This document shows positions 1 through 11,037 of a stretch of 11,037 nucleotides of DNA, one piece after another. The DNA lies in the NCBI GenBank assembly GCA_016208345.1, contig JACQYG010000264.1, positions 1 through 11,037 of the forward strand, given 5' to 3'. A model generated the notes under the pieces. It made no database searches, was not told the origin of the DNA, and saw only the letters and a list, made by a program, of their open reading frames with translations. The stretch is from Chloroflexota bacterium (GTDB lineage: Bacteria > Chloroflexota > DTOL01 > JACQYG01). Within the stretch, counting starts at the first letter, position 1. The number at the start of each line of letters is the position of its first letter. A program made the position numbers and the translations under genes.

Positions 1-202
1 CAGGCAGATCGACCAGGACCAGGTAGCCCTGGCGCAGGAAATGCTCCACCTCCCGGTAGTAGACAAGGTAGGGAGCCTCCTGGGAGGTGGTGATGACGAA
101 GTTGTCTTTTTCCAGGCCCACGTTGCCCTCGCCCTGGCTGACCAAACGGTCATCAGGGTCGAAGTGTTTATAGGACATGGGATAGGTATTCAATGGAACC
201 AT
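1..202 (-). CDS. Partial hypothetical protein (N-terminal 67 residues)
   Basis: The reading frame starts at an ATG at 202 on the minus strand and is still open at base 1, so only the first 67 codons are present. The start is supported by a strong Shine-Dalgarno site, AAAAGGAGT (211-219), 8 nt upstream. A near-consensus promoter lies further upstream (255-283). The protein begins MVPLNTYPMSYKHFDPDDRL. It shows no signal peptide or membrane segment and is rich in acidic and aromatic residues, followed by a hydrophobic strand (YLVLVDLP) at the window edge. I do not recognise the family. It is transcribed divergently from the FAD-dependent oxidoreductase pair and may share an operator with it. 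Presence of a gene is well supported; its function is unknown. Confidence 0.7.
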   Translation of the reverse strand, partial: MVPLNTYPMSYKHFDPDDRLVSQGEGNVGLEKDNFVITTSQEAPYLVYYREVEHFLRQGYLVLVDLP

Positions 203-254
203 CGCGCAAGACTCCTTTTGCCTCCGAGGTCCCATGGGCCAGGGGGTTGGCGCT

Positions 255-283
255 ATTCTAGTGGAGGCCACTGCCCCTGTCAA
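255..283 (-). promoter_or_regulatory. Sigma-70-type promoter of the leftward gene
   Basis: On the minus strand, TTGACA (278-283) and TAGAAT (255-260) are separated by exactly 17 nt (261-277). The -35 box is a perfect consensus and the -10 box differs at one position. Transcription would begin near 247, leaving a leader of about 45 nt that contains the strong Shine-Dalgarno site of the gene starting at 202. Confidence 0.7.
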
Positions 284-294
284 GGGCCTGCCCT

Positions 295-311
295 GGCCAA
301 TACGATTGGCC
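295..311. promoter_or_regulatory. Inverted repeat between divergent promoters, candidate operator
   Basis: GGCCAAT-ACG-ATTGGCC is a perfect 7 bp inverted repeat with a 3 bp centre. It lies 11 bp upstream of the minus-strand -35 box and 8 bp upstream of the plus-strand -35 box, roughly midway between the two promoters. A dyad of this size is typical of a site for a dimeric regulator. That a protein binds here and controls both genes is inference; no regulator gene is visible in the window. Confidence 0.4.
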
Positions 312-319
312 TGCTACCC

Positions 320-348
320 TTGCATTCGCGCCTGGGCTAGGGTATACT
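320..348 (+). promoter_or_regulatory. Sigma-70-type promoter of the oxidoreductase pair
   Basis: TTGCAT (320-325) and TATACT (343-348) are separated by 17 nt. Both boxes are close to the sigma-70 consensus. The expected transcription start near 355 leaves a very short leader, about 16 nt, before the ATG at 371. The Shine-Dalgarno of that gene is poor (GTAGG, 5 nt upstream), so the gene may be translated from a nearly leaderless message. Confidence 0.65.
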
Positions 349-370
349 GCTCGGTACAAAGTAGGCATTT

Positions 371-1801
371 ATGAGTCGAGATTGTAACGTGGCTGGCGCC
401 GAGAACGATCTCCAATTGAGGGATGGAGCCAGGATCGCCGTGGTGGGGGCGGGGCCGGCAGGCAGCCTGTTCGCCATCTTTGCCTGGCGCCTGGCCGCGG
501 AACTGGGCCGGAAGGTCCACATCACCGTCTTCGACGGCAAGCCCTTCACCCAAAGCGGGCCCCAGGGCTGTAACATGTGCGCCGGGGTGGTGGCGGAAGG
601 CCTGGTGGCCAGGTTTCGTGAGATCGGCTTAACCCTTCCGGAAAGCATCGTCCAGCGGCACATCCGAGGGTACTGGTGGGAGACCCGGGCGGGGAACCTG
701 CATCTATCGCCTCAGAAGGCCGAGTCGGAGATCTACACCGTCTACCGCGGCAACGGCCCTCGCGGCTCCACCCCTGGCCGCAACGTCAGCTTCGACGATT
801 ATCTCCTGGGACAGGTGAGTTCTTTAGGGGTACAGGTGGTCCCACAGCCGGTGGTGGAGATCCAGGTGCCCCACGGCACCAGGAATGACCCGGCCACGGT
901 GCTCGTCGGGTCCAAGGCACACAAAGAAGTCTACGAGGCTGACCTGGTGGTGGGGGCCTTTGGCCTCAGCCCGCGCCTGGCGCGGCAGGTGACAGCTCTG
1001 GGGTTCGGCTATGTCCCCCCTCCCACCTTGCCATCGTATCAGGCTGAGCTCCGGCTAGGGGCAGATCGGGTCAAAGAGGGCTTTCAGGATCGCATCGTCA
1101 TCTATGAGCTGGGCCTGTCGGGCATCAAGTTCGGGGCGATCATCCCGAAACAGGAGCACCTCACCGTGACCCTCATCGGCGAGAAGGCAGGGAAAGAGAG
1201 CCTGCTGGGCTTTCTGGCTCACCCCCTGGTCAGCAAGAGGCTGCCGCCAGGCTGGCAGGCGCCCGCGGACTACTGCCACTGCTGCCCGCGGGTGGCCGTG
1301 GCCCCTTGCCAAAAGCCTTTCACCAACCGGATAGTCATGATCGGCGATGCCAGCGTATCTAGGCTCTACAAGAATGGCCTGGACTCAGCGTTCCTGACGG
1401 CGAAGGCGGCGGCGGAGGCGGCATTCCGGCACGGCGTCTCCGCCCAGGCTTTCGCACGCTACTACCTCCCCACGTGCCGGGCCCTGGCAAGGGACAGCGC
1501 TTACGGCAGACTGCTCTTCCGTCTCAGCGCTTTGGGCTTTGCCTCCCAAATATTCCTTAGGCTTTTCGTCCAGGCTGCCCGCTACGAGCAGTTAGCCTGT
1601 CGGCCAAGGGAGCAGGTCCTGGGCCGCATCCTTTGGGGCTCCTTTACCGGCGACCAGCCCTATAAGGATATCGTGCTTGCCGCCTTGAGTCTGAGAATAC
1701 AGTGGCGCCTTTGGTCTTCTTTACTAGTAAAGAAGGCGTCGCCCATACCTGGAGGGTCGGCCGGGGATTCCATAGACAAAGTAACACCCGACGAGGCCTA
1801 G
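371..1801 (+). CDS. FAD-dependent oxidoreductase, geranylgeranyl-reductase type
   Basis: This 476-residue protein has the FAD-binding Rossmann signature IAVVGAGPAGS (glycines at 26-31). A second FAD contact motif, VMIGDA, has G325-D326, as in the FixC/geranylgeranyl reductase family. C67 and C70 sit in QGCNMCAGVV, where related enzymes often carry a conserved Cys near the flavin. Known family members reduce isoprenoid chains or other hydrophobic substrates with a reduced flavin; the substrate here cannot be read from sequence. The gene heads a two-gene operon with a paralog 3 bp downstream. The start at 371 follows a promoter at 320-348. The last ~28 residues (from S449) have no counterpart in the paralog and begin inside a palindromic repeat (1716-1735, read as SLLVKK), so the tail may come from insertion. 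Family placement is fairly sure; the specific reaction is not. Confidence 0.8.
   Translation: MSRDCNVAGAENDLQLRDGARIAVVGAGPAGSLFAIFAWRLAAELGRKVHITVFDGKPFTQSGPQGCNMCAGVVAEGLVARFREIGLTLPESIVQRHIRGYWWETRAGNLHLSPQKAESEIYTVYRGNGPRGSTPGRNVSFDDYLLGQVSSLGVQVVPQPVVEIQVPHGTRNDPATVLVGSKAHKEVYEADLVVGAFGLSPRLARQVTALGFGYVPPPTLPSYQAELRLGADRVKEGFQDRIVIYELGLSGIKFGAIIPKQEHLTVTLIGEKAGKESLLGFLAHPLVSKRLPPGWQAPADYCHCCPRVAVAPCQKPFTNRIVMIGDASVSRLYKNGLDSAFLTAKAAAEAAFRHGVSAQAFARYYLPTCRALARDSAYGRLLFRLSALGFASQIFLRLFVQAARYEQLACRPREQVLGRILWGSFTGDQPYKDIVLAALSLRIQWRLWSSLLVKKASPIPGGSAGDSIDKVTPDEA
1716..1735. repeat. Dispersed palindrome, copy 1 (inside oxidoreductase 3' end)
   Basis: CTTCTTTACTAGTAAAGAAG is a perfect 20 bp palindrome centred on CTAG. 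It lies in frame in the first oxidoreductase gene, encoding SSLLVKK (residues 449-455), 66 bp before the stop codon. Its A/T-rich composition contrasts with the GC-rich codons on both sides. Confidence 0.85.
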
Positions 1802-1804
1802 ACC

Positions 1805-3106
1805 GTGGATACCTTTTCCGGCGACTATCTGGGTCCCCTGGACGACGGACAGACCGCGGTGATCATCGGCGGCGGTCCCGCTGGGGCCGCCTGCGCCATC
1901 GCCTTGAAGAACCTGGCGGCGGAGCTGGGCCGGAGCATCGAGGTCATCATCTACGAGGGGAAGACCTTTGCCGGGGAGATCCACCACAACCAGTGCGTGG
2001 GCGTGCTTTCCCCGCCGCTGCGGGAGGTCATGGAGGAGCGCCTGGGGGTGGCCTTCCCCCACCACCTGGTGCAGACCAGTATCGGTGGCTACGTCCTGCA
2101 CTCAGATCGCCTCAGCATCGTCCTGGAAGAGGAGGGTGAGCCGTCCTACGTCGTCAAGCGCGTCCAGTTCGATGACTACCTTCTGGGAAAGGCCCGGGAG
2201 CGGGGAGTGCGGGTGGTTCAGTGTCGGGTTACCGATCTGGAGTTCGCCTGGGACCGGGTCGTGGTCTACAGCGAGGGAGACAACCGCCGGGCGGACGTGC
2301 TGGTGGGCGCCTTCGGCCTGGACGATGGGGCGATCCAGCTCTTCCAGCGAGCCACTTCGCCGCGGCGCAGGGACGCTTACGCCCCACCCCAGTGCCTGGA
2401 CTCCATCGTGACCAGGATCTATCCCGCTCCCGACTTCCTGGCGGGATTCGGCGATCGCATCCACGCCTTTCTGCCCGCCATGCCCAGGATCGAGTTCGGG
2501 GCGGTTACACCCAAACACGATCATCTGACCGTTAACATCGCCGGCGCCCAGGTGGATGCGAGGCTCATGGGTGATTTCCTAACCTTTGCGCCGGTGAAGA
2601 AGGTATTGCCTCCATCCTTCAACCCCTCCTCCAGCGAGCTCGCGTACTTCAAGGGCCGGTTTCCTGTCTCCCTGGCCAGGGGATATTACAATGACCGCTA
2701 CGTGATGGCGGGCGACGCCGCCGGCCTCCTGCGCCCGTTCAAGGGCAAGGGTGTGACCTACGGCTGCATCACCGGCATCCGGGCCGCCGAAACGATCATG
2801 AAAGAGGGGATCTCCAAGGCTGCCTTCAGGGGATACGAACGAAAGTCGCAGGAGGTCCTGGACGATATGATCTACGGCAGGATCGTCCGCTGGCTAGCCA
2901 TCGCCAGCGCGTATTACGGATTCTTGGACCCGGTTTTGGAGATCGCCAAAAACGACCACGCTTTGCGCCGGGCCCTGTTCGACGCCGTTTCGGCCCATAA
3001 GCTATTCAAGGAGATCGTCCGGGATACCTTGCGCCCGGGCCTGGCGGCCAGGCTGGCCGCCGCCTCTGCCCTGACCCTCCTGGGCTTCAAACCACGGTCT
3101 TCTTGA
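1805..3106 (+). CDS. FAD-dependent oxidoreductase, paralog of the upstream gene
   Basis: This 433-residue protein is clearly related to the gene before it. It shares the Rossmann motif AVIIGGGPAGAAC (glycines at 22-27), the phrase AAELGR, a Cys in NQCVGV (C64), FDDYLLG, and the second FAD motif VMAGDAAG (G303-D304) followed by FKGKG. These place it in the FixC/geranylgeranyl reductase group. A GTG start at 1805 is chosen because it lies 3 bp after the preceding TAG, has GAGG at 1793-1796 as a plausible ribosome site, and puts the FAD motif near residue 20 as in the paralog. The two proteins may form a heteromeric reductase or act on successive substrates of one lipid pathway; this is inference from operon structure. 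No membrane helix is obvious, although the C-terminus is amphipathic and hydrophobic. Confidence 0.8.
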   Translation: MDTFSGDYLGPLDDGQTAVIIGGGPAGAACAIALKNLAAELGRSIEVIIYEGKTFAGEIHHNQCVGVLSPPLREVMEERLGVAFPHHLVQTSIGGYVLHSDRLSIVLEEEGEPSYVVKRVQFDDYLLGKARERGVRVVQCRVTDLEFAWDRVVVYSEGDNRRADVLVGAFGLDDGAIQLFQRATSPRRRDAYAPPQCLDSIVTRIYPAPDFLAGFGDRIHAFLPAMPRIEFGAVTPKHDHLTVNIAGAQVDARLMGDFLTFAPVKKVLPPSFNPSSSELAYFKGRFPVSLARGYYNDRYVMAGDAAGLLRPFKGKGVTYGCITGIRAAETIMKEGISKAAFRGYERKSQEVLDDMIYGRIVRWLAIASAYYGFLDPVLEIAKNDHALRRALFDAVSAHKLFKEIVRDTLRPGLAARLAAASALTLLGFKPRSS

Positions 3107-3155
3107 CCAGTGGAAAGCGGAAGCGCGTCACCTTACTTGCCCCTGGTTCTGCCGG

Positions 3156-3188
3156 AGACTCCCGGTGTCTGGCAGACACCGGGAGTCT
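3156..3188. terminator. Strong hairpin between convergent operons, probable bidirectional terminator
   Basis: AGACTCCCGGTGTC (3156-3169) and GACACCGGGAGTCT (3175-3188) form a perfect 14 bp stem around the loop TGGCA. It lies 50 bp after the stop of the second oxidoreductase and touches the TAA of the convergent Mut7-C gene (3188-3190). Only a weak T run follows on the plus strand (TTAT), so it is not a textbook intrinsic terminator. It may act as a transcriptional barrier or as a 3'-end stabiliser for both messages. Confidence 0.55.
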
Positions 3189-3634
3189 TATCTCGCCGAT
3201 CTATTGACCTTCTCCACCATCTTCTGCCAATGAGTCCCTCTCCAGAAGAGCCGCCCACATTGCGGGCAGCGTCGAAACTCATCTTGGGTTTCGTAGACGT
3301 ACGGCGGCACCTGTCCGAGCACCTGGGGTTTGTCTACCTGCTCTAATGAGACGTTGCAACGCAGGCAACGGGTGAAGGGCGGCCGTGAATCAAGATAGCC
3401 CTCCCGGGCCAGTTGTCCGATCTGCTCCACCAGATCTTCGCTGGACACGTAGAGGCCCTTTAACCCCTTGCGGGCCAGAAGTCGTGTGTCCCGGGTGAGG
3501 AGGACTCGGTCCTCCGCTCGCGCCAGCCGGGCGATCTCGGCATCGCTCCAAGCGTTGGAGTACAGTGTGTCATAGCCCAGGATGCGCAGCCACTTGGCCA
3601 GACGCCCCAGCATCTGGTCGGCCAGGAATCTCAT
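3188..3634 (-). CDS. Mut7-C RNase domain protein with C-terminal zinc ribbon
   Basis: A 148-residue protein starting MRFLADQMLGRLAKWLRILG, a hallmark opening of the Mut7-C (DUF82) family of PIN-like ribonucleases. D6 and D49 (in LLTRDTRLL) are likely metal-binding acidic residues of the nuclease fold. The C-terminal half carries two CxxC pairs, C90/C93 and C123/C126 (RCLRCN and RCPQCGR), forming the expected zinc ribbon. Length matches the stand-alone family. The start at 3634 is chosen over an upstream extension because its ATG overlaps the TGA of the preceding gene (ATGA), the extension would lie wholly inside that gene, and the domain begins exactly here. Translational coupling to the endonuclease III-like gene implies coordinated production. 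Family assignment is confident; the RNA substrate is unknown. Confidence 0.85.
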   Translation of the reverse strand: MRFLADQMLGRLAKWLRILGYDTLYSNAWSDAEIARLARAEDRVLLTRDTRLLARKGLKGLYVSSEDLVEQIGQLAREGYLDSRPPFTRCLRCNVSLEQVDKPQVLGQVPPYVYETQDEFRRCPQCGRLFWRGTHWQKMVEKVNRSAR

Positions 3635-4320
3635 GCCACTGCCTTGCAGCACTCCTTCACCGGACAAACATCGTGGCGATTGCTCCGACAAAAATCCTTC
3701 CCTAACCTCAGGAGGGCCGCTTCGCTGTCCACCAACCGTTCCTGAGGAATGGCCCTCTTTAAGTCTGCCAGGGCGACTTGGGGCTCTTGGGTGGAGGTGA
3801 GCCCCAGGTTCACGGCGGCCAGAAGAACCAGGGCCGAGGGCAGTGGGTCGGCCTTGGGCCATAACCCCCGTAGCTCCCGCAGGAAGATGTTAACGGTAAC
3901 CGGCCCGATGCCTTTGCCCAGGGCCATGAGTCTGGTCTCCAGGTCCCGCGGGTCACGGGCTGCAGCATGCAACACGTTCAGGTCCCCGTCATAAAGGACC
4001 TCCAGAGCTTCCATCACCGCCAGAAGCTTGGTAGCGGTCTTGAAATCGTAGCGGGCATATCCGCCGGCGTCCAGGAGCTCCACCAGCCCATCCCATCCCG
4101 TTTCGATGATGGCCTTCGGCGTGGTAATCCCTTGGCGCTCGAACTCGCCATAGGTCCGGGCGGCCAGGCGCTCGCTGATGCGGCCCCCGAAAAGTATGGA
4201 GGCCAGGAACCATTTGAAGATCTCACCGGGCCGGCCGCCGGCCAGATCGATGTCAAGGTCTCGTGAGTAGCGCCCACCGAGCCTTTGGGTCAAGAATTCG
4301 GCATAACCTTGAATTTTCAT
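3631..4320 (-). CDS. HhH-GPD endonuclease III-like protein with altered catalytic motif
   Basis: A 229-residue protein with the all-helical layout of the HhH-GPD DNA glycosylases. The helix-hairpin-helix motif is LGKGIGPVTVNIFL (about 134-147). At the position where bifunctional endonuclease III has its catalytic Lys (LPGVGRKTA), this protein reads GPV, so lyase activity is doubtful. D158 in KADP is a candidate for the conserved catalytic Asp. The C-terminus has four cysteines (C211, C219, C224, C225), but their spacing (x7, x4, x0) differs from the C-x6-C-x2-C-x5-C iron-sulfur loop, so a [4Fe-4S] cluster is uncertain. The ATG at 4320 is preferred over one 30 bp upstream because GAGGGA lies at the right distance. 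The gene is first in an operon with the Mut7-C RNase. It may be a monofunctional glycosylase or a non-catalytic DNA-binding relative. Confidence 0.7.
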   Translation of the reverse strand: MKIQGYAEFLTQRLGGRYSRDLDIDLAGGRPGEIFKWFLASILFGGRISERLAARTYGEFERQGITTPKAIIETGWDGLVELLDAGGYARYDFKTATKLLAVMEALEVLYDGDLNVLHAAARDPRDLETRLMALGKGIGPVTVNIFLRELRGLWPKADPLPSALVLLAAVNLGLTSTQEPQVALADLKRAIPQERLVDSEAALLRLGKDFCRSNRHDVCPVKECCKAVA

Positions 4321-4349
4321 GGTTTTCCCTCTTCCAGACACCCAAACCA

Positions 4350-4378
4350 ATTATATCATCTTCCGCTCCCGGTTAGCA
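4350..4378 (-). promoter_or_regulatory. Promoter of the endonuclease III-like/Mut7-C operon
   Basis: On the minus strand a perfect TATAAT box (4350-4355) lies 30 bp upstream of the ATG at 4320. The sequence 17 nt further upstream, TGCTAA (4373-4378), is a poor -35 match. The promoter may therefore be weak or need an activator. Confidence 0.5.
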
Positions 4379-4465
4379 CGCCGAAATCCCCATTTTTGCC
4401 ATAAGCTCATGAATTGGGGTCGCAGCCCAACCACGGTGGGCGGCCCCTCTGCTTTCACCGCTGAC

Positions 4466-4494
4466 TTGTGCCCTATCAATTGACCTGCTATAAT
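4466..4494 (+). promoter_or_regulatory. Sigma-70-type promoter of the Thr/Pro-rich membrane protein
   Basis: TTGTGC (4466-4471), a 17 nt spacer and a perfect TATAAT (4489-4494). The expected start of transcription near 4501 leaves a leader of about 47 nt before the ATG at 4548. This argues against the in-frame GTG at 4509, which would leave almost no leader. Confidence 0.6.
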
Positions 4495-4547
4495 GTGGCC
4501 CTGCGTCGGTGCCGAAATTATACTCTCACCAAGGGGGACCTCTCTTC

Positions 4548-5174
4548 ATGTTCATCGAAGGCTTCTTTACTAGTAACGAAATTTTCAAGCCGCACCTGAA
4601 CCCCCCCGTCGGGGTGAGGGCCTCTCCGCCGCTCACCACTACGGTGCCGACCACCGCCACAGTGACGGCCACGCCGCCGGTTACGACCACCCTCCCAGTC
4701 ACAGCCACGCCCCCTACCACCGCGCCTCCCGGGGGTACCGTGAGGTACCTCGCCTGGTGGCAGGGACTGGATTTGCCGCTATTAATCCTGTTCGTCGCCA
4801 TCGGGCTGGCGGCGGCTTTCTCTTATTTCTACCTTAGCCAGAGAGTTTTCCGGGAACACCGGCTGAATGCCCGTCTGACCGAGATATTGGCTCTGGCTGG
4901 TGCGCTGGCCAGCGGCCTGGGCCTCTTGCTGCTGGGGTTCACCAGTTGGCAGATCCCGCTCCTCTCGCATCCACTTCTGATGAACCTGTTGCTTGCGGCC
5001 ATTATTGGCGTCCTCGGCTACGGCGTCTACTTTTACTTGCAGAGATATCCCAAGATGCGCGAAAGCTACGAGCTGGAGGAAAGGAAGAAAAAGTACATGC
5101 CCAAACCTAAGGCCGCGAAGCCTTCCCCCCCGGCTTCTCCGCCTAGAAAGAAAAAGGCCAAGAAGAGGAGGTAG
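4548..5174 (+). CDS. Membrane protein with Thr/Pro-rich ectodomain, three TM helices and Lys-rich tail
   Basis: A 208-residue protein I do not recognise. Residues 27-62 are almost entirely Thr, Pro, Ala and Val with repeated VTATPP phrases, resembling a mucin-like, potentially O-glycosylated stalk. Three hydrophobic segments follow (about 75-97, 112-134 and 142-163). The tail (165-208) is full of Lys, Arg and Pro and ends KKKAKKRR. The positive-inside rule predicts the Thr/Pro region outside and the basic tail inside, so the N-terminus would cross without a cleavable signal peptide. The ATG at 4548 is chosen for AAGGGGGA (4531-4538) upstream; a GTG at 4509 is the alternative. A palindromic repeat copy (4562-4581) encodes residues 5-11 (GFFTSNE). 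It has its own promoter and terminator, so it is probably monocistronic, just before the surface-glycan operon. Its role is unknown. Confidence 0.65.
   Translation: MFIEGFFTSNEIFKPHLNPPVGVRASPPLTTTVPTTATVTATPPVTTTLPVTATPPTTAPPGGTVRYLAWWQGLDLPLLILFVAIGLAAAFSYFYLSQRVFREHRLNARLTEILALAGALASGLGLLLLGFTSWQIPLLSHPLLMNLLLAAIIGVLGYGVYFYLQRYPKMRESYELEERKKKYMPKPKAAKPSPPASPPRKKKAKKRR
4562..4581. repeat. Dispersed palindrome, copy 2 (start of membrane protein gene)
   Basis: CTTCTTTACTAGTAACGAAA matches the 18 bp core at 17 positions; one arm base is changed (AAAG to AACG), which breaks one pair. It begins 14 bp into the membrane protein gene and is read as F-F-T-S-N-E. This is a different frame from the SLLVKK reading used by copies 1, 5 and 6. 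Confidence 0.75.
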
Positions 5175-5199
5175 CACCAGAGCCCGGGTATCTTTTCGT

Positions 5200-5217
5200 T
5201 TCTTTACGAGTAAAGAC
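5200..5217. repeat. Dispersed palindrome, copy 3 (intergenic, before terminator)
   Basis: TTCTTTACGAGTAAAGAC lies 25 bp after the stop of the membrane protein gene and directly abuts the terminator stem that starts at 5218. It has a CGAG centre and a changed last base. This is the only clear copy lying wholly outside coding sequence. Confidence 0.75.
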
Positions 5218-5254
5218 AGCTCTGCCTCGCCATCCAGGAGGCCAGGGCTTTTTT
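5218..5254 (+). terminator. Rho-independent terminator after the membrane protein gene
   Basis: AGCTCTG-CCTC (5218-5228) pairs with GAGG-(C)-CAGGGCT (5238-5249). The 11 bp stem contains one G-T pair and one bulged C, encloses a 9 nt loop, and runs into six T (5249-5254). It lies about 45 bp after the stop codon and separates the membrane protein gene from the glycan operon. Confidence 0.7.
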
Positions 5255-5256
5255 AC

Positions 5257-5285
5257 TTGTCCCACCGGCGCTTTTTTGTTACAAT
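5257..5285 (+). promoter_or_regulatory. Promoter of the surface-glycan operon
   Basis: TTGTCC (5257-5262), 17 nt spacer, TACAAT (5280-5285). Each box is close to the sigma-70 consensus. It starts immediately after the terminator T tract and would initiate near 5292, giving a leader of about 60 nt before the first glycosyltransferase. Confidence 0.55.
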
Positions 5286-5300
5286 ACCCTGGCGCCTTCT

Positions 5301-5329
5301 CTTGGAACGTCGAGGTCCCGGCGTCCAAG
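5301..5329 (+). other. Possible hairpin in the leader of the glycan operon
   Basis: CTTGGA-A-CG (5301-5309) can pair with CG-TCCAAG (5322-5329), giving 8 bp with one bulged A and a 12 nt loop. It lies between the predicted transcription start and the ribosome site of the first glycosyltransferase. It could affect translation or stability, but no known riboswitch pattern is recognised. Confidence 0.25.
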
Positions 5330-5351
5330 CAGGTTGTTCGGGGAGCCCTCG

Positions 5352-6476
5352 ATGCGCATCGGCATTGACGCCAGGCTGCTCTACTATCAACAGGCGGGCA
5401 TCGGGCAATACACTCTGCGGCTAGTGGAAGCCCTGGCTCAAGTCGACCGTGAAAACGAATACGTGTTGTTGCAGAGCCGCAAGGACCGGAGCATATTGGC
5501 CAGAGAGCCAAACTTCCGGCGCCATGCCATGTGGACACCACCGCATCACCGGTTCGAGCAGCTTGCCTTGTCCCTGGAGCTGGCGCCGGTTAAGGTGGAC
5601 GTGCTTCACCAGCCCGACTTCATTCCTCCCTGGCGTCGGCGCTGCCCCGCGGTAGTGACCATCCACGACCTGGGATTCCTGCACTACCCAGAAACCTTAA
5701 CCGAGGCCAGTAAACGCTACTACGGCCAGATCCATTGGGCAGTGAAGAGCGCCGAGCAGATCATCGCCGTCTCGGAATGCACGAAAGAGGACCTGGCACG
5801 GCTGACCAGCGCCCCTGAGAGCAAGGTCACGGTGATCTACGAGGCTGCCGGGCCACAGTTCCATCCGATAGAGGACCAATCTGCCCTTAAGGACGCCAAG
5901 GCCAGATATGGGATTGTGGGCGACTTTATCCTGTTCGTGGGCACCATCGAGCCCCGCAAGAACCTTTCCAACCTGGTGCGCGCCTACGCCTACCTGATTA
6001 AGGAAAAGGCCCGAGATCAGGCCTTACCGAAATTGATCATCGCAGGCAAGCGTGGATGGCTCTTCGAGGAGGTCTTCAGCCTGGTGGAGGAGTGGGACCT
6101 GGGTTATGCCATCCGCTTCATTGGCAGTGTTCCCGCAGAGGACTTGCCCTATCTCTACAATGCTGCTTGCCTGTTCGTCTACCCTTCCCTCTACGAAGGA
6201 TTCGGGCTACCCTTGCTGGAGGCCATGTCCTGTGGTACGCCCGCGGTGGCCTCGGACCGCTCCAGCCTGCCCGAGATAGCCGGAGATGCCGCCCTACTAG
6301 TGCCACCGGAGGACCCCGAGAAAATGGCCCAGGCCATATGGCAGGCTTTAACTGACGAAGAGCTTCGGCGAGAGCTACGACAAAAGGGCCTGGCCCAGGC
6401 CCAGGGTTTCTCCTGGGAAAGGACGGCCAAACAGACCATCCAGGTCTATCAGAAGGCAGCAGGCCTGGCTGGCTAG
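5352..6476 (+). CDS. GT4-family glycosyltransferase
   Basis: A 374-residue GT-B fold glycosyltransferase. It opens MRIGIDARLLYYQQAGIGQY, with the Gly-rich acceptor-side loop typical of GT4 mannosyl/rhamnosyl-type enzymes. It contains VVTIHDLGFLHYP (linker of the N-domain), ILFVGTIEPRKNL (start of the C-domain, about 194-206) and the donor-binding E-x7-E motif, E282-GFGLPLL-E290. Such enzymes transfer a sugar from a nucleotide donor to a lipid-linked or growing glycan on the cytoplasmic face of the membrane. The donor sugar cannot be decided from sequence. The ATG at 5352 has GGGGAG (5340-5345) 6 nt upstream; an in-frame TTG at 5334 is less likely. It is the first gene of the operon; the next glycosyltransferase starts 35 bp after its stop. 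Length is normal for the family. Confidence 0.85.
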   Translation: MRIGIDARLLYYQQAGIGQYTLRLVEALAQVDRENEYVLLQSRKDRSILAREPNFRRHAMWTPPHHRFEQLALSLELAPVKVDVLHQPDFIPPWRRRCPAVVTIHDLGFLHYPETLTEASKRYYGQIHWAVKSAEQIIAVSECTKEDLARLTSAPESKVTVIYEAAGPQFHPIEDQSALKDAKARYGIVGDFILFVGTIEPRKNLSNLVRAYAYLIKEKARDQALPKLIIAGKRGWLFEEVFSLVEEWDLGYAIRFIGSVPAEDLPYLYNAACLFVYPSLYEGFGLPLLEAMSCGTPAVASDRSSLPEIAGDAALLVPPEDPEKMAQAIWQALTDEELRRELRQKGLAQAQGFSWERTAKQTIQVYQKAAGLAG

Positions 6477-6482
6477 GCCAAT

Positions 6483-6500
6483 GCCTCTACTAGTTTAGGA
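6483..6500. repeat. Possible degenerate palindrome copy between two glycosyltransferases
   Basis: GCCTCTACTAGTTTAGGA agrees with the TTCTTTACYRGTAAAGAA core at 12 of 18 positions, including a perfect ACTAGT centre. It lies in the 35 bp gap between the two glycosyltransferase genes, a gene-junction position like several true copies. It may be a decayed copy or chance. Confidence 0.2.
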
Positions 6501-6511
6501 TACGAGAGCCA

Positions 6512-7795
6512 ATGAGGATACTTTTTCTGACCCCTGGCCTGCCCTATCCGCCCAACAAGGGTACCTCCATCAGGAACTATAACCTTATCAAACAACTTTC
6601 GGCCCGCCACGAGGTCCATCTTCTGTCGTTCGTGTGGTCCGAGGAGGAACTGGCCTGGCTTCCCGCTCTCCGGGAGTGCTGCCAGAGCATCGAAACGGTG
6701 ATGGCGCCCCGGCGAGGATTCCCCCGGCGCGCGCTCTCCGTATTTCTCTCCCCGTTGCCGGACATGGCCCTGAGGCTCCCGTCGCCTGAATTCCGAGCGA
6801 AGCTCGCGGTCATGCTGGGGCGAGAGCCCTTTGATCTGGTCCAGGTAGAGGGCATCGAGTTGGCCCAGTATGGGTTGGATTTGATCAATGGGGATATATC
6901 CTTGATCCACCCGGCGCCTTCTAGCGTCTTCGATAACCACAACGCCGAATACGTCCTGCAACAGAGGGCCTGGGAGATCGATCGACGCTATCCCCTGCGC
7001 TGGGCTGGTGCCCTTTATTCCTTTATTCAATGGCGCAAGCTGAGGGCTTACGAGGCCATGGTATGCCGGTCTTTCGATAAGGTCATCGCTGTATCGGAGG
7101 CTGACCGCAACGCCCTGCACCGCATCGTCCCACAGGTGGACATCGCGGTGGTGCCCAATGGTGTGGACTGCGCGCTTTTCTCCAGTCAGGTCCCGGCCGA
7201 TGCCTATCCGGCGCCCGAGTCCAGGATCAAACATGAAGCCTCTTTGATTTTCACCGGCACCATGGATTTTCGCCCCAATATCGACGCGGTGACCTGGTTT
7301 TGCCAGGAGGTATTGCCTCTGATCAAGAAGGACATCTTTCACGTTCACTTCTACATCGTAGGCAAGAGCCCACCTCCCGAGGTGCGGCGGTTGGGCGAAG
7401 ATCCAGCAGTCACGGTGACCGGTTACGTGGACGACGTGCGCCCCTACATGATCCACTCCCGGGTCTACGTCGTGCCCCTGCGCATGGGCAGCGGCACCAG
7501 ACTCAAAGTACTCCAGGCCATGGCCATGGGGATACCGGTTGTGTCCACCACTGCTGGCGCCGAAGGCATTGCGGCCAGGCCCGGCGAGGACATCCTGATC
7601 GCCGACGACCCTACGACCTTTGCCCAGCAGGTGGTCAGCCTCCTCAACGACGAGGAGAGGCGCAAGAAAATGGCCGCCAGAGGCCGGGCCTTGATGGAGG
7701 CCAGTTACGACTGGGCGGTGATCGTCCCACGGCTGGAACGCGTTTATTCGCAACTGAAGCACCTGCCGGCGGACGAGCAAGGGGCGGTCGGTTGA
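6512..7795 (+). CDS. GT4-family glycosyltransferase, PEP-CTERM/exosortase-associated sugar-transferase type
   Basis: A 427-residue GT-B glycosyltransferase. The N-terminus MRILFLTPGLPYPPNKGTSI and the phrase HNAEYVLQQRAW are typical of GT4 members linked to exopolysaccharide clusters, including the PEP-CTERM/exosortase-associated sugar transferases. The C-domain has VVPNGVD, FTGTMDFRPNIDAV and LRMGSGTRLKVLQAMAMG. In this subfamily the first Glu of the E-x7-E motif is already replaced (S327), and the second is usually Glu in LEAMAMG; here it is Gln (Q335). The enzyme may still work, since this subfamily diverges at the motif, but donor binding could be altered. The start at 6512 has weak ribosome sites (AGGA at 6497-6500). 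The stop overlaps the TTG start of the following hydrolase. It likely adds a sugar to the same glycan as its neighbour. Confidence 0.82.
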   Translation: MRILFLTPGLPYPPNKGTSIRNYNLIKQLSARHEVHLLSFVWSEEELAWLPALRECCQSIETVMAPRRGFPRRALSVFLSPLPDMALRLPSPEFRAKLAVMLGREPFDLVQVEGIELAQYGLDLINGDISLIHPAPSSVFDNHNAEYVLQQRAWEIDRRYPLRWAGALYSFIQWRKLRAYEAMVCRSFDKVIAVSEADRNALHRIVPQVDIAVVPNGVDCALFSSQVPADAYPAPESRIKHEASLIFTGTMDFRPNIDAVTWFCQEVLPLIKKDIFHVHFYIVGKSPPPEVRRLGEDPAVTVTGYVDDVRPYMIHSRVYVVPLRMGSGTRLKVLQAMAMGIPVVSTTAGAEGIAARPGEDILIADDPTTFAQQVVSLLNDEERRKKMAARGRALMEASYDWAVIVPRLERVYSQLKHLPADEQGAVG

Positions 7796-9591
7796 GACCC
7801 TTTACCGGTAAAGAAAGTGCCAAGAGACGGCGGCGATGGAGATGGAGATGGAGATGGAGGACCCTGGTGTCCCTGACCCTGGCGGTGGGGAGCTTCGCTC
7901 TGGCCATGGCCGTTTTTCTGTCTTTCCCCGGCCTGGCCCAGCTTATGGAAGAGGGCGAGCTGAAGGTCAGGGTCATGGCCGTTTACTCCCGCTTCACTTC
8001 ACGGCAAACCAACACTTCGGACCTGGCCCCCATCGCCCATACTGCCGTGAAGCCCCTGGGAATAAACACCATGCTCCAAGACGAGGTGGAGGAGTCGAAG
8101 GTCCGCAGGTCCCTCCAGATGATCCGCGACGCCGGTTTTGCCTGGGTTCGCCAGCAGTTCCCCTGGCGCGAGATCGAGGTTCCCTCCAAAGGACGATATT
8201 GGGACACCAAGTTCAACCACAGCACCTGGGAGAAGTTCGACCGCATCGTTAACCTGGCCCAGGAGTATGGTTTGAGCCTCATCGTGCGTCTGGATTCGCC
8301 ACCGGACTGGACCCGCCGGGAAAGCTCTCACTATACGCGTCCCCCGGACAACCTGGACGACTTCGGTGACTTCGTGTATACGGTGGTGAGCCGCTACCGG
8401 GGAAAAGTAAAGTATTACCAGATCTGGAATGAGCCCAACCTGGCCGTGGAATGGGGCCAACGGGACGTGAGCGCCTCGGAGTTCACCAAACTGCTCAAGA
8501 TCGCCTACACCCGAGCCAAGGAGGCCGATCCGGACTGCGTGGTCATCGCACCTGGCCTGGCCCCTACCCTGGACCCGGGGCCGCACAACCGCATGGACAC
8601 CCTCTTTTTGCAAGAGATGTACGATGCCGGAGCCAAAGACTATTTCGACATCATGTCCACCATGGCCTACGGGCTACGGCGGGGGCCGGACGACCGGAGG
8701 CTGGACGAGAAGGACGAGATGAACGTCTCCCGGCCCATTCTCCTACGAGAGGTCATGGTGCGCAACGGCGATGCCGGAAAACCAATCTGGCTCTCCGAGC
8801 TGGCCTGGAATGCCCTGCCCAAGGATTACCCGGAGAAGCCCTTCTGGGGCCGGGTGAGCGAGGCTCAACAGGCCAGGTACACCGTGCGGGCCCTGGAGCG
8901 CATCCAGGAGGAATGGCCCTGGGTCGGAGTCGTCAACCTCTGGTTTTTCAAGCCCGCCACCAAAAACGATAAGGACCAGCAATACTACTTCCGTATGGTG
9001 GACCCGGACTTCACGCCCCGCCCGGTCTGGGAGGCGGTCAAGCGATTCGCCACCACCCGGCCGGCGGCCATGCCGCGCGGCTATCACCAGGAGGACCACT
9101 GGACCATCAAATATAAGGGACAGTGGCAGACCATTCGGGACCAGAGGGCAAGCCTGAGTGCCTACGCGCTCTCTCGCTCCGCCGGCGACAGCCTGAGCTT
9201 TAGCTTCCGGGGCATCGATCTCACCCTGGTGACCAGTCAGGGCCCTCAGGCCGGCTACCTGCAAGTCTGGGTTGACGGTAGTGGCGCCCGGGCCAACCAA
9301 TTGCCTGCCGACGCTCAGGGCCTGGCCTTCCTGGACCTTCAGGCCCCGCAGGAGAAGTGGCAGGCGAAGATCCCCATAGCCAAAGGGCTCCCTGGAGGCC
9401 TCCACACGGTGGAGGTCAGGAACATGGGTGCCGGGCTCGCCGATGAGAGCAGCATATCCATTGACGGGTTCATCGTCGATCGCTCGGCCAACCCGGCCGG
9501 TGGCATCATCCTGGGCATCCTGGGCATATGTCTTCTGGTGGGCCTGCCGGGTTTTTTGGCCCAATTGCTGCAACGCTGGGGCCACAGATGA
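7792..9591 (+). CDS. Membrane-anchored clan GH-A glycoside hydrolase
   Basis: A 599-residue protein. A basic N-terminus with a run of Arg-Trp repeats (residues 11-23) precedes a transmembrane segment (about 24-48). The catalytic barrel (about 85-425) contains YYQIWNEPN (E214, acid/base) and PIWLSELAWN (E336, nucleophile). These are the paired Glu motifs of clan GH-A; the overall look is closest to GH39/GH5-like enzymes. A beta-sandwich, carbohydrate-binding-like region follows (about 430-563), then a second hydrophobic segment (570-592) with a basic end, so the enzyme appears anchored at both ends. A TTG start at 7792 is chosen because AAGGGG (7779-7784) is well placed and the start overlaps the preceding TGA (TTGA); the open frame further upstream lies within the glycosyltransferase gene. 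It probably trims or remodels the glycan made by this operon. Substrate is unknown. Confidence 0.75.
   Translation: MRPFTGKESAKRRRRWRWRWRWRTLVSLTLAVGSFALAMAVFLSFPGLAQLMEEGELKVRVMAVYSRFTSRQTNTSDLAPIAHTAVKPLGINTMLQDEVEESKVRRSLQMIRDAGFAWVRQQFPWREIEVPSKGRYWDTKFNHSTWEKFDRIVNLAQEYGLSLIVRLDSPPDWTRRESSHYTRPPDNLDDFGDFVYTVVSRYRGKVKYYQIWNEPNLAVEWGQRDVSASEFTKLLKIAYTRAKEADPDCVVIAPGLAPTLDPGPHNRMDTLFLQEMYDAGAKDYFDIMSTMAYGLRRGPDDRRLDEKDEMNVSRPILLREVMVRNGDAGKPIWLSELAWNALPKDYPEKPFWGRVSEAQQARYTVRALERIQEEWPWVGVVNLWFFKPATKNDKDQQYYFRMVDPDFTPRPVWEAVKRFATTRPAAMPRGYHQEDHWTIKYKGQWQTIRDQRASLSAYALSRSAGDSLSFSFRGIDLTLVTSQGPQAGYLQVWVDGSGARANQLPADAQGLAFLDLQAPQEKWQAKIPIAKGLPGGLHTVEVRNMGAGLADESSISIDGFIVDRSANPAGGIILGILGICLLVGLPGFLAQLLQRWGHR
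7798..7815. repeat. Dispersed palindrome, copy 4 (glycosyltransferase/hydrolase junction)
   Basis: CCCTTTACCGGTAAAGAA has a perfect 14 bp palindromic core, CTTTACCGGTAAAG (7800-7813). Its centre is CCGG, and the outer two bases of the left arm are changed. It starts 2 bp after the glycosyltransferase stop and encodes PFTGKE at residues 3-8 of the hydrolase. Confidence 0.8.
7835..7858 (+). repeat. Tandem hexamer GATGGA x4 encoding Arg-Trp repeats
   Basis: Four exact copies of GATGGA in a row lie inside the hydrolase gene just before its first membrane segment. They encode alternating Trp and Arg. Because the unit is 6 bp, slippage would add or remove Arg-Trp pairs without changing frame. Confidence 0.9.
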
Positions 9592-11037
9592 TTTCTTTAC
9601 TAGTAAAGAAATCTCACCGGTCCGTGTATATGCTGCTCTTGCTGGTGGTCCTCCTGGCCCTGGCCCTGCGCCTCTACCGGCTGGACGGCCAAAGCCTCTG
9701 GAACGACGAGGGCACCAGCGTGGCCCTGGCCCAGCGGGACCTGCCCACTATCACCCGGAGCGCCGCCGCCGACATCCACCCGCCCCTGTACTACTACCTC
9801 CTGCACATCTGGATCGCCCTGGCCAGCACCAGCGAGATGGGCGTCCGCTCGCTTTCCGTCCTGGGTGGCGTGCTGTTGGTCCTGGTGACCTTTGCCCTGG
9901 GCCGCAGGCTGGCGGGAGCCAGAATCGGCCTCCTGGCCGCCTTTCTTTCGGCCATCTCCCCCTTTCAGGTGTACTACTCCCAGGAAACCCGCATGTACGT
10001 CCTGGTGGCGCTCCTGGGGGCAATCTCGGTGTACCTGACCGCCCAGTGGCTGGGGGCTTTTGGCGCAAACACTGGTCCGGCAAGCCTGCGGTTGAACTGG
10101 CTCACCCTAGCCGCATACGTGGCCGTGACCTCGGCCGCCCTTTACACCCACTACTTCGCCTTCACCGTAGTGCTGGCCGAAGCCCTGGCCGTGCTCCTGG
10201 TGGCGGTAGGCCGGTACTGGAGGGGCCAGGTCGGGGGGGGCTACATACGCTCCATCCTGTCCTGGGCGGGCGCTCTCCTGGCCAGCGTCGCGCTCTACCT
10301 GCCCTGGCTGGGGGCCATGCGCCAGCAGTGGGCCAACTGGCCGGCCACCAGCGCGCCTTTTAGCTTGCCAGACCTTCTGGTGAGGGCTGCTGCTGATCTC
10401 AGCCTGGGCCGCTCGGCTGACCCATCGGCCATGTGGCCGGCCGTGGTGCTCCTCACCGCTATCCTCCTGGTGGGACTCTTACCGTTAAGGAAAAGAATCG
10501 CTGCCACTGACGGCTACCTCATCGCCGTCCTGTACCTCTTCGTGCCCGTGCTGTCGCTCTACCTGCTCTCCCTGCGCCGGCCCTTTTATGACTCCAAGTT
10601 TCTCTTGGTGGCCAGCCCCGCCTACTACCTGATGGTAGCACAGGGCCTGGAGAACATCTGTTCTTTACTGGTAAAGAAAGCCCGTGCCGGGCCTCTTTTA
10701 GCAGGCCTGGCCCTGGGCGGAATGGTCGTCGCCAGCGGACAGTCCCTCGGCAACTACTATTGGGATGCCAGGTACGCCCGGGATGACTACCGGGGCATCG
10801 CCCGGTACATCGAGGCTTTTGGGAGGCTTGGAGATGCCATATTGCTCAATGCGCCGGGCCAGGTAGAGACCTTCGAGTACTATTATCGCGGGGAGCTCCC
10901 CCGCCATCCCCTGCCCCGGCAGCGGCCCTTGGAGGAAGAACCGACCCAGGTGGAGCTCAGATCGTTGGTAGAGGCCTCCCGTCGGATCTGGGCCATTTAC
11001 TGGGCCACGGCGGAGAGTGACCCAAAGCGCTTCATCG
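9588..11037 (+). CDS. PMT/ArnT-type integral membrane glycosyltransferase (partial, N-terminal 483 residues)
   Basis: The frame opens at an ATG at 9588 that overlaps the TGA of the hydrolase (ATGA) and stays open to the window edge. The first membrane helix (about 13-29) is followed by RLDGQSLWNDEGTS (D40, E41) and AADIHPPLYYYLL (D62, H64). This acidic loop and the HPPLYY phrase are the signature of the PMT_2/ArnT-like GT-C fold, which uses polyprenyl-phosphate sugars and transfers them outside the membrane to proteins or lipids. Many further hydrophobic helices follow, and SPFQVYYSQETRMY is another typical element. Two palindromic repeat copies lie in this gene: one at the start (residues 3-8, SLLVKK) and one in a predicted loop (359-364, SLLVKK). 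The Shine-Dalgarno is weak, so translation probably depends on coupling to the hydrolase; an internal ATG at 9630 is possible. Confidence 0.83.
   Translation, partial: MISLLVKKSHRSVYMLLLLVVLLALALRLYRLDGQSLWNDEGTSVALAQRDLPTITRSAAADIHPPLYYYLLHIWIALASTSEMGVRSLSVLGGVLLVLVTFALGRRLAGARIGLLAAFLSAISPFQVYYSQETRMYVLVALLGAISVYLTAQWLGAFGANTGPASLRLNWLTLAAYVAVTSAALYTHYFAFTVVLAEALAVLLVAVGRYWRGQVGGGYIRSILSWAGALLASVALYLPWLGAMRQQWANWPATSAPFSLPDLLVRAAADLSLGRSADPSAMWPAVVLLTAILLVGLLPLRKRIAATDGYLIAVLYLFVPVLSLYLLSLRRPFYDSKFLLVASPAYYLMVAQGLENICSLLVKKARAGPLLAGLALGGMVVASGQSLGNYYWDARYARDDYRGIARYIEAFGRLGDAILLNAPGQVETFEYYYRGELPRHPLPRQRPLEEEPTQVELRSLVEASRRIWAIYWATAESDPKRFI
9590..9613. repeat. Dispersed palindrome, copy 5 (longest; hydrolase/PMT junction)
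   Basis: A perfect 24 bp palindrome, the TTTCTTTACTAGTAAAGAAA core plus two more pairs on each side (GA...TC), centred between 9601 and 9602. It overlaps the hydrolase stop codon and starts on the last base of the next gene's ATG. It encodes ISLLVKKS at residues 2-9. Confidence 0.9.
10661..10678. repeat. Dispersed palindrome, copy 6 (inside PMT-type gene)
   Basis: TTCTTTACTGGTAAAGAA has perfect 8 bp arms around a non-pairing TG centre. It encodes SLLVKK (359-364), between two hydrophobic segments of the membrane glycosyltransferase. This is the only clear copy away from a gene end or junction. Confidence 0.85.

Follow-up and report, generated by a model that had tools for sequence, protein, structure and literature searches.

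An 18-bp palindrome, TTCTTTACNNGTAAAGAA, recurs in an 11,037-nt stretch of DNA from a Chloroflexota bacterium (contig JACQYG010000264.1, positions 1 to 11,037; hereafter the window). The explanation that we favor, which falls a little short of probable, is that this palindrome is the unit of a lineage-specific interspersed repeat that spreads by overwriting resident DNA and then drifts. Six places in the window, whose GC content is 61.5%, match the palindrome at three or fewer mismatches, compared with a mean of 0.01 and a maximum of one in 200 dinucleotide shuffles. A preliminary description of the window had reported these six copies, and all of them were borne out, with its start positions 1716, 4562 and 9590 off by 1, 1 and 3 bases. 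Three copies have perfect arms, two have one arm mismatch and one has two.

We searched for the palindrome in the genome that holds the window (G000; 2.10 Mb in 366 contigs, 74% complete) and in a second genome of the same genus (G001, the sister genome; 2.6 Mb, 84% complete); among the genomes available to us, these two alone represent the class. The 14-mer CTTTACNNGTAAAG occurs 59 times in G000 and 79 times in G001, and its reversed control occurs in neither. The 18-mer was found 91 and 134 times at up to one mismatch (reversed control, 0 and 0) and 204 and 275 times at up to three (reversed control, 1 and 3), the latter a density of about one copy per 10 kb. In a sample of 299 further genomes from the phylum, 293 had no match and six had a single one-mismatch match. 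The shuffles and the reversed controls reject chance or base composition as the cause, in agreement with the preliminary description. That description had also reasoned that a large excess restricted to one lineage would point to a dedicated system, and that a count near expectation, or copies found in the window only, would speak against one. The count is far above expectation in G000 and G001, copies extend well beyond the window, and the palindrome is nearly absent from the 299 other genomes. An assembly artefact is unlikely because copies stand at matching places in the sister genome as well. Copies do crowd contig ends (12 of 174 copies with at most two mismatches in the two genomes lie within 120 bp of an end, 4.3 expected), where strain mixtures or hairpins may break the assembly. 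We also considered a phage origin and rejected it, since 46 viral contigs had an exact match, at one place each, compared with 58 for the reversed pattern, which is background.

The proposal that copies overwrite resident DNA comes from comparing the two genomes place by place. We aligned the flanks of copies to the sampled part of the other genome, using 0.36 Mb of G000 and 1.02 Mb of G001; the first contigs of both genomes were picked for near-perfect copies and the later G001 contigs were not. An ortholog was obtained for 41 G000 copies with at most three mismatches, 39 by script and two, both window sites, read from the alignment. The copy is shared without gaps in 27 cases, 14 of them with identical 18-mers, and is common to both genomes with small indels or an adjacent deletion in seven. 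One copy is interrupted by a 141-bp insert in G001, one copy with three mismatches has been lost there, and the remaining five lie opposite unrelated sequence. In the reverse direction, of 28 G001 copies with at most one mismatch, G000 has unrelated sequence opposite three and has lost half of a fourth.

This comparison yielded eight copies present in one genome only, and at none of them is the occupied allele 18 bp longer than the unoccupied one. The differences in length (occupied minus unoccupied) are -6 bp at window 1717, +2 at L030:1948, 0 at L037:3137, -1 at L057:2393 and -2 at L167:1048 for the copies in G000, and -6 at L065:15255, -3 at L068:62 and -3 at L069:11675 for those in G001. 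An insertion of 18 bp with target duplication was thus seen at none of the eight (net change, -6 to +2 bp), and this same-length replacement contradicts the suggestion in the preliminary description of a mobile palindromic element, insofar as ordinary insertion is meant. Three of the eight copies are coding and five are intergenic; therefore, the reading frame alone does not account for lengths that are so nearly equal. Replacement is plainest at L037:3137: the flanks match closely, the roughly 19 bases between them differ almost without exception, and the length does not change. Measured against random DNA of equal length, the unoccupied alleles at the eight sites show no greater resemblance to the motif (ungapped P 0.11-0.92; gapped P 0.08-1.0), and they are unique in the sampled DNA of both genomes save for one 16-nt match. 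Growth from a pre-existing half-site is not supported by these alleles; the one at L030:1948 has an arm-like stretch when gaps are allowed (P 0.17). Divergent blocks of near-equal length were found at 5 of 31 G000 copies with at most one mismatch and at 12 of 738 random 18-mers with an ortholog (p = 0.0003, with windows that are not fully independent). Against divergent blocks of all kinds the excess is slight (5/31 vs 46/738, p = 0.048), and we conclude that it lies mainly in same-length events.

Once present, copies appear to change at about the rate of the DNA around them. In the 27 gapless pairs, 16 of 432 specified motif sites differ (3.7%), compared with 104 of 1914 near-flank positions (5.4%; p = 0.15) and with 410 of 9115 positions, plus 85 indel events, in intergenic DNA between the genomes (4.5%). 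The 141-bp insert mentioned above is found in L079, the ortholog of L037:2815, and lies inside the motif copy with ACCAGTA on each side. Its sequence recurs in G001 (CCCCGATACATTACACAGAATCAAAG), so that the insert looks like a miniature inverted-repeat transposable element (MITE) that used the motif as a target.

Copies have little sequence in common beyond the 18 bp, the unit having sharp edges. Among 146 copies with at most two mismatches, the central pair is TA in 79, CA or TG in 49, CG in 8 and another pair in 10. The centre is thus variable, as the preliminary description had stated, and its further statement that the centre usually stays palindromic is weakened, the pair often not being self-complementary. 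Outside the unit, the same copies have a weak preference for A at +1, C at +3 and G at +4 and +5, and pairing between left and right flanks is not above that of shuffled flanks. Isolated long palindromes exist, for example at L098:2530. Common flanks did not reveal a donor: no two copies of one genome match over more than 8 adjoining nt, and a slight excess of 4-6 nt flank matches is due to the weak base preference.

Decayed copies retain a core, TT..C..G..AA. In 176 copies with one to three mismatches, the mismatches at successive positions of the half-site TTCTTTAC number 46, 65, 52, 12, 14, 47, 63 and 16, so that three of the eight positions hold 42 of 315 mismatches where 118 were expected. 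The profile looks alike whether copies are coding or intergenic, and local mutability is not supported as its cause, because trinucleotide mutability fails to predict it. Mismatches are symmetric in only 2 of 47 double-mismatch copies. The core looks like the contacts of a dimeric protein, and the earlier idea of a site for such a protein fits it. It may reflect either selection acting on individual sites or something that the copying process needs. Conservation of the putative contact positions is strong in the profile of decayed copies and not significant in changes since the two genomes split: in the 27 gapless pairs, 4 of 162 core sites changed where 7.3 changes were expected under neutrality (P = 0.15), and 12 of 270 other motif positions changed where 12.2 were expected.

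We next consider where copies lie relative to genes, which we called with a purpose-made hexamer caller rather than a standard one; it gave 89% coding and reproduces the reading frames of the window. The placement counts pool both genomes, and sites common to both can count twice. Intergenic copies make up 73 of 141 with at most one mismatch, compared with 11.5% of random positions. Gene ends and starts account for some of the 68 coding copies: 14 are within 60 bp of a 3' end (7.4% expected), and 8 are equally close to a start (6.9% expected). The motif is read as FFTSKE in 38 of the 68, as SLLVKK in 25 and in a stop-containing frame in 5. Copies also tend to be close neighbours, with 29 pairs less than 400 bp apart among 232 copies with at most three mismatches (15.3 expected, shared pairs counting twice). 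The densest cluster puts four copies into about 170 bp, with valS on one side and a protein kinase/FHA gene on the other (L089:6481-6652 and L040:1455-1625); it is kept in both genomes, and valS itself contains a fifth copy.

Proteins that carry the motif peptide offer a view of the direction of change. We compared eight copy-bearing proteins with solved homologs, and in six of them (LysRS, a HemW-like protein, a UbiE-like methyltransferase, LarE, an esterase and a GT4 glycosyltransferase) the peptide lies over native residues with no six-residue addition; for six of the eight, where the copy has one mismatch or sits in a flexible segment, the alignment at that place may be off by a few residues. 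This comparison suggests that the motif was written over resident sequence. Two of the genes have further features. The HemW-like protein (L085:3487-4830, minus strand) has some 60 extra residues before VYFGGGTPS relative to homologs, and the DNA of this segment contains another palindrome, GCAGCCTTAAGGCTGC, which recurs in G001. In the Ddl gene (L117:9361-9412 compared with L173), a motif-like stretch of G000 corresponds to two GTACACCTTCCAGGTGTAC palindromes in G001, and the total lengths are equal (88 and 88); GTACACCTTCCAGGTGTAC also recurs in G001.

The copies in the window are listed in Table 1. The preliminary description had pointed out that all of them lie in plus-strand transcription units, an observation to which we give no weight, given that the site is palindromic and that just about 1.1 kb is taken up by the two genes of the minus strand. 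At five mismatches, chance matches are as frequent as real ones, and for this reason the place at 3100..3117 may be a decayed copy or chance.

Table 1. Copies of the 18-bp palindrome in the window and their state in the sister genome
Feature	Position	Context	Sister genome (G001)
Perfect copy	1717..1734	3' end of reading frame 371-1801, peptide SLLVKK	Unrelated sequence, 6 bp longer (copy specific to G000)
Possible decayed copy, may be chance	3100..3117	5 mismatches	4 mismatches
Copy with one arm mismatch	4563..4580	Codons 6-11 of reading frame, peptide FFTSNE	Contig C1 stops 3 bases into copy
Copy with one arm mismatch	5200..5217	Intergenic	No ortholog found in assembly
Copy with two arm mismatches	7798..7815	Gap or start region of next gene	Identical
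Perfect copy	9593..9610	Start of next reading frame	Copy with two arm changes and one central
Perfect copy	10661..10678	Inside reading frame, peptide SLLVKK	Common to both genomes, two changes

Other repeats were noticed as well. A palindrome at window positions 3156-3188, AGACTCCCGGTGTCTGGCAGACACCGGGAGTCT, has a 14-base arm that is found 20 times (both strands) in the 1.02 Mb of G001 and at one place in the sampled G000 DNA; we read it as a putative separate repeat or terminator-like family. G000 also has a REP-like palindrome, CTGATGTCCCGGAGTT/AACTCCGGGACATCAG (for example at L047:7160 and L042:2770), whose arm has 10 matches in the sampled G000 DNA and 0 in G001, and the same genome has three Y1_Tnp genes.

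A potential mechanism for overwriting would have three parts. A dimeric DNA-binding or DNA-processing protein would recognise TT..C..G..AA; a new copy would arise by replacement, the palindrome taking the place of about 20-38 bp of resident DNA, and not by insertion; and copies would survive where replacement is tolerated, namely in intergenic gaps, at gene ends and in flexible protein segments, and would then decay. That the palindrome propagates itself in this way, by copy-and-replace rather than copy-and-insert and driven by a candidate dimeric protein needing little beyond TT..C..G..AA, we regard as possible and somewhat doubtful. Our search for machinery covered both drafts, and any absence is weak evidence because both are incomplete. 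Ku had no match in either draft genome, which weakens capture of oligonucleotides by end joining. A reverse-transcribed donor is likewise weakened, RVT_1 matches being present in G001 only. Four Y1_Tnp genes were found, three in G000 and one in G001, and the surrounding stretches of 1.8-2.9 kb hold a single motif-like place, with four mismatches (L103:170), so that a link of the RAYT type was not seen. For ParB, G001 has one match above the cut-off and a weak one below it, and G000 has none. A perfect parS lies beside parB in L298 (G001 contig C228), so that the ordinary system for chromosome partition comes with a site of its own.

Several observations weigh against overwriting. The replacement cases number only eight, and none is polarised by an outgroup genome. 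The 12 windows of the random control come from just 9 distinct places, and intergenic DNA often has divergent 18-mers of one kind or another (34/328). Unoccupied alleles have a weak gapped resemblance to the motif at L057:2393 (P 0.08), L030:1948 (0.17) and window 1717 (0.34), and an old, heavily decayed copy may have stood at these three places. Among the host proteins, ValRS has about 19 extra residues around its copy, and Ddl has 5 at its copy and 3 nearby. Neither a propagating protein nor a donor was found in the two incomplete drafts, and no mechanism is known to us by which 18 bp would replace foreign sequence with the length unchanged. Finally, the retained core could mean selection on each site.

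Selection of this kind is the substance of a serious rival explanation, in which a dimeric protein particular to the genus, with a role in chromosome organisation or broad regulation (Noc- or SlmA-like), uses the palindrome as its operator, hundreds of sites being kept where they are tolerated. We consider this possible rather than likely. Besides the constrained core, it is consistent with the recognition of 35 of 41 G000 copies with an ortholog at the same place in the sister genome, or of an insert-bearing copy there, with the shortfall of core changes described above, and with an outer layout like that of ParB/Noc operators. However, substitution and indel rates are overall close to those of intergenic DNA, small indels or adjacent deletions affect the seven copies noted above, no type of gap is preferred, one-genome copies appear wholesale without pre-sites, and a second ParB was not found in the two incomplete drafts. 

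The remaining alternatives were also compared with the overwriting explanation. An inserting miniature element of a known type (a REP with a RAYT, or a MITE) would be palindromic, dispersed and lineage-restricted, both genomes have Y1_Tnp genes, and the extra residues in ValRS and Ddl fit an insertion. The near-equal lengths would then have to reflect coincidence or deletions at the time of insertion, and we consider the idea unlikely: there is no +18 event among the eight one-genome copies, nothing is common beyond 18 bp, target duplication was not seen, and the Y1_Tnp genes have just the one motif-like place near them. Uptake sequences overlay existing sequence, are lineage-restricted and are far denser than one per 10 kb. 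The first two properties would suit a DNA uptake sequence or another self-recognition mark spreading by biased transformation and recombination, whereas the density here is far below that of the known uptake signals and the one-genome alleles are not near-matches, making such a mark quite improbable. An RNA hairpin for termination or processing, also raised in the preliminary description, gains from the perfect inverted repeat and from the 46 of 73 intergenic copies that lie between co-directional genes. Yet 62% is expected for co-directional gaps, and there is no bias to promoter or terminator gaps, with 12 copies in divergent gaps, only 4 of 73 in convergent ones (6.7% expected) and 11 at contig edges, all near the share of bases. 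In addition, 68 of 141 copies lie within called genes, and the rarity of symmetric mismatches argues against pairing, so that we regard a hairpin as very improbable. Taken together, the earlier interpretation holds in part: a palindrome for a dimeric protein and a spreading element both fit, the latter by replacement, and insertion and an RNA hairpin do not.

Occupied and unoccupied alleles of the palindrome can be compared place by place, and it is this comparison that points to replacement at near-constant length. If overwriting is correct, it would be a further route of mutation, one by which coding sequence is rewritten with the frame intact, and the palindrome would be mobile DNA that hardly alters genome length and can rewrite about six residues per event. 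If the sites are selected instead, the genus would have its own DNA-binding system with hundreds of sites.

Short palindromic repeats are common in bacteria, and little is settled about how those lacking a linked transposase multiply. ParB and Noc operators are dyad sites of similar length with a TTT...AAA layout, and Noc sites are dispersed; they differ from the palindrome in their core bases, and the only ParB match above the cut-off has its own perfect parS. The preliminary description knew of no described family that matches, and the literature we searched contained none with this 18-bp unit; the string TTTACTAGTAAA appeared only in papers that are, by title, on other subjects. Nearest in behaviour is HIP1, one of the highly iterated palindromes of cyanobacteria, which is 8 bp long (GCGATCGC), is linked to a methyltransferase and is proposed to originate by stepwise biased repair of near-matches (Elhai 2015, PMC4390886). 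Like the palindrome described here, HIP1 is short and is repeated across the genomes of one lineage over existing coding and non-coding sequence. In contrast to its 8 bp, the unit here is 18 bp at about one per 10 kb, and opposite the one-genome copies the sister has nothing close to the motif. REPs, according to PMC3733652, are stem-loops of 20-40 bp, mostly downstream of genes, of which the GTAG kind is linked to RAYT genes. REPs and REPINs are likewise short dispersed palindromes, some of them within genes, but the 18-bp unit has no GTAG or CGTC tag, RAYT link or downstream placement. The palindromic elements of Rickettsia, described as insertions in reading frames (cited in PMC3733652), also give a recurring peptide to unrelated proteins; there residues are added, whereas here most copies replace residues, as in the six of eight proteins above. 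Each family compared has a feature that the palindrome lacks or on which the comparison is undecided, and we therefore file it under none of them. In our reading, it is a variant of dispersed short palindromic repeats in its own right.

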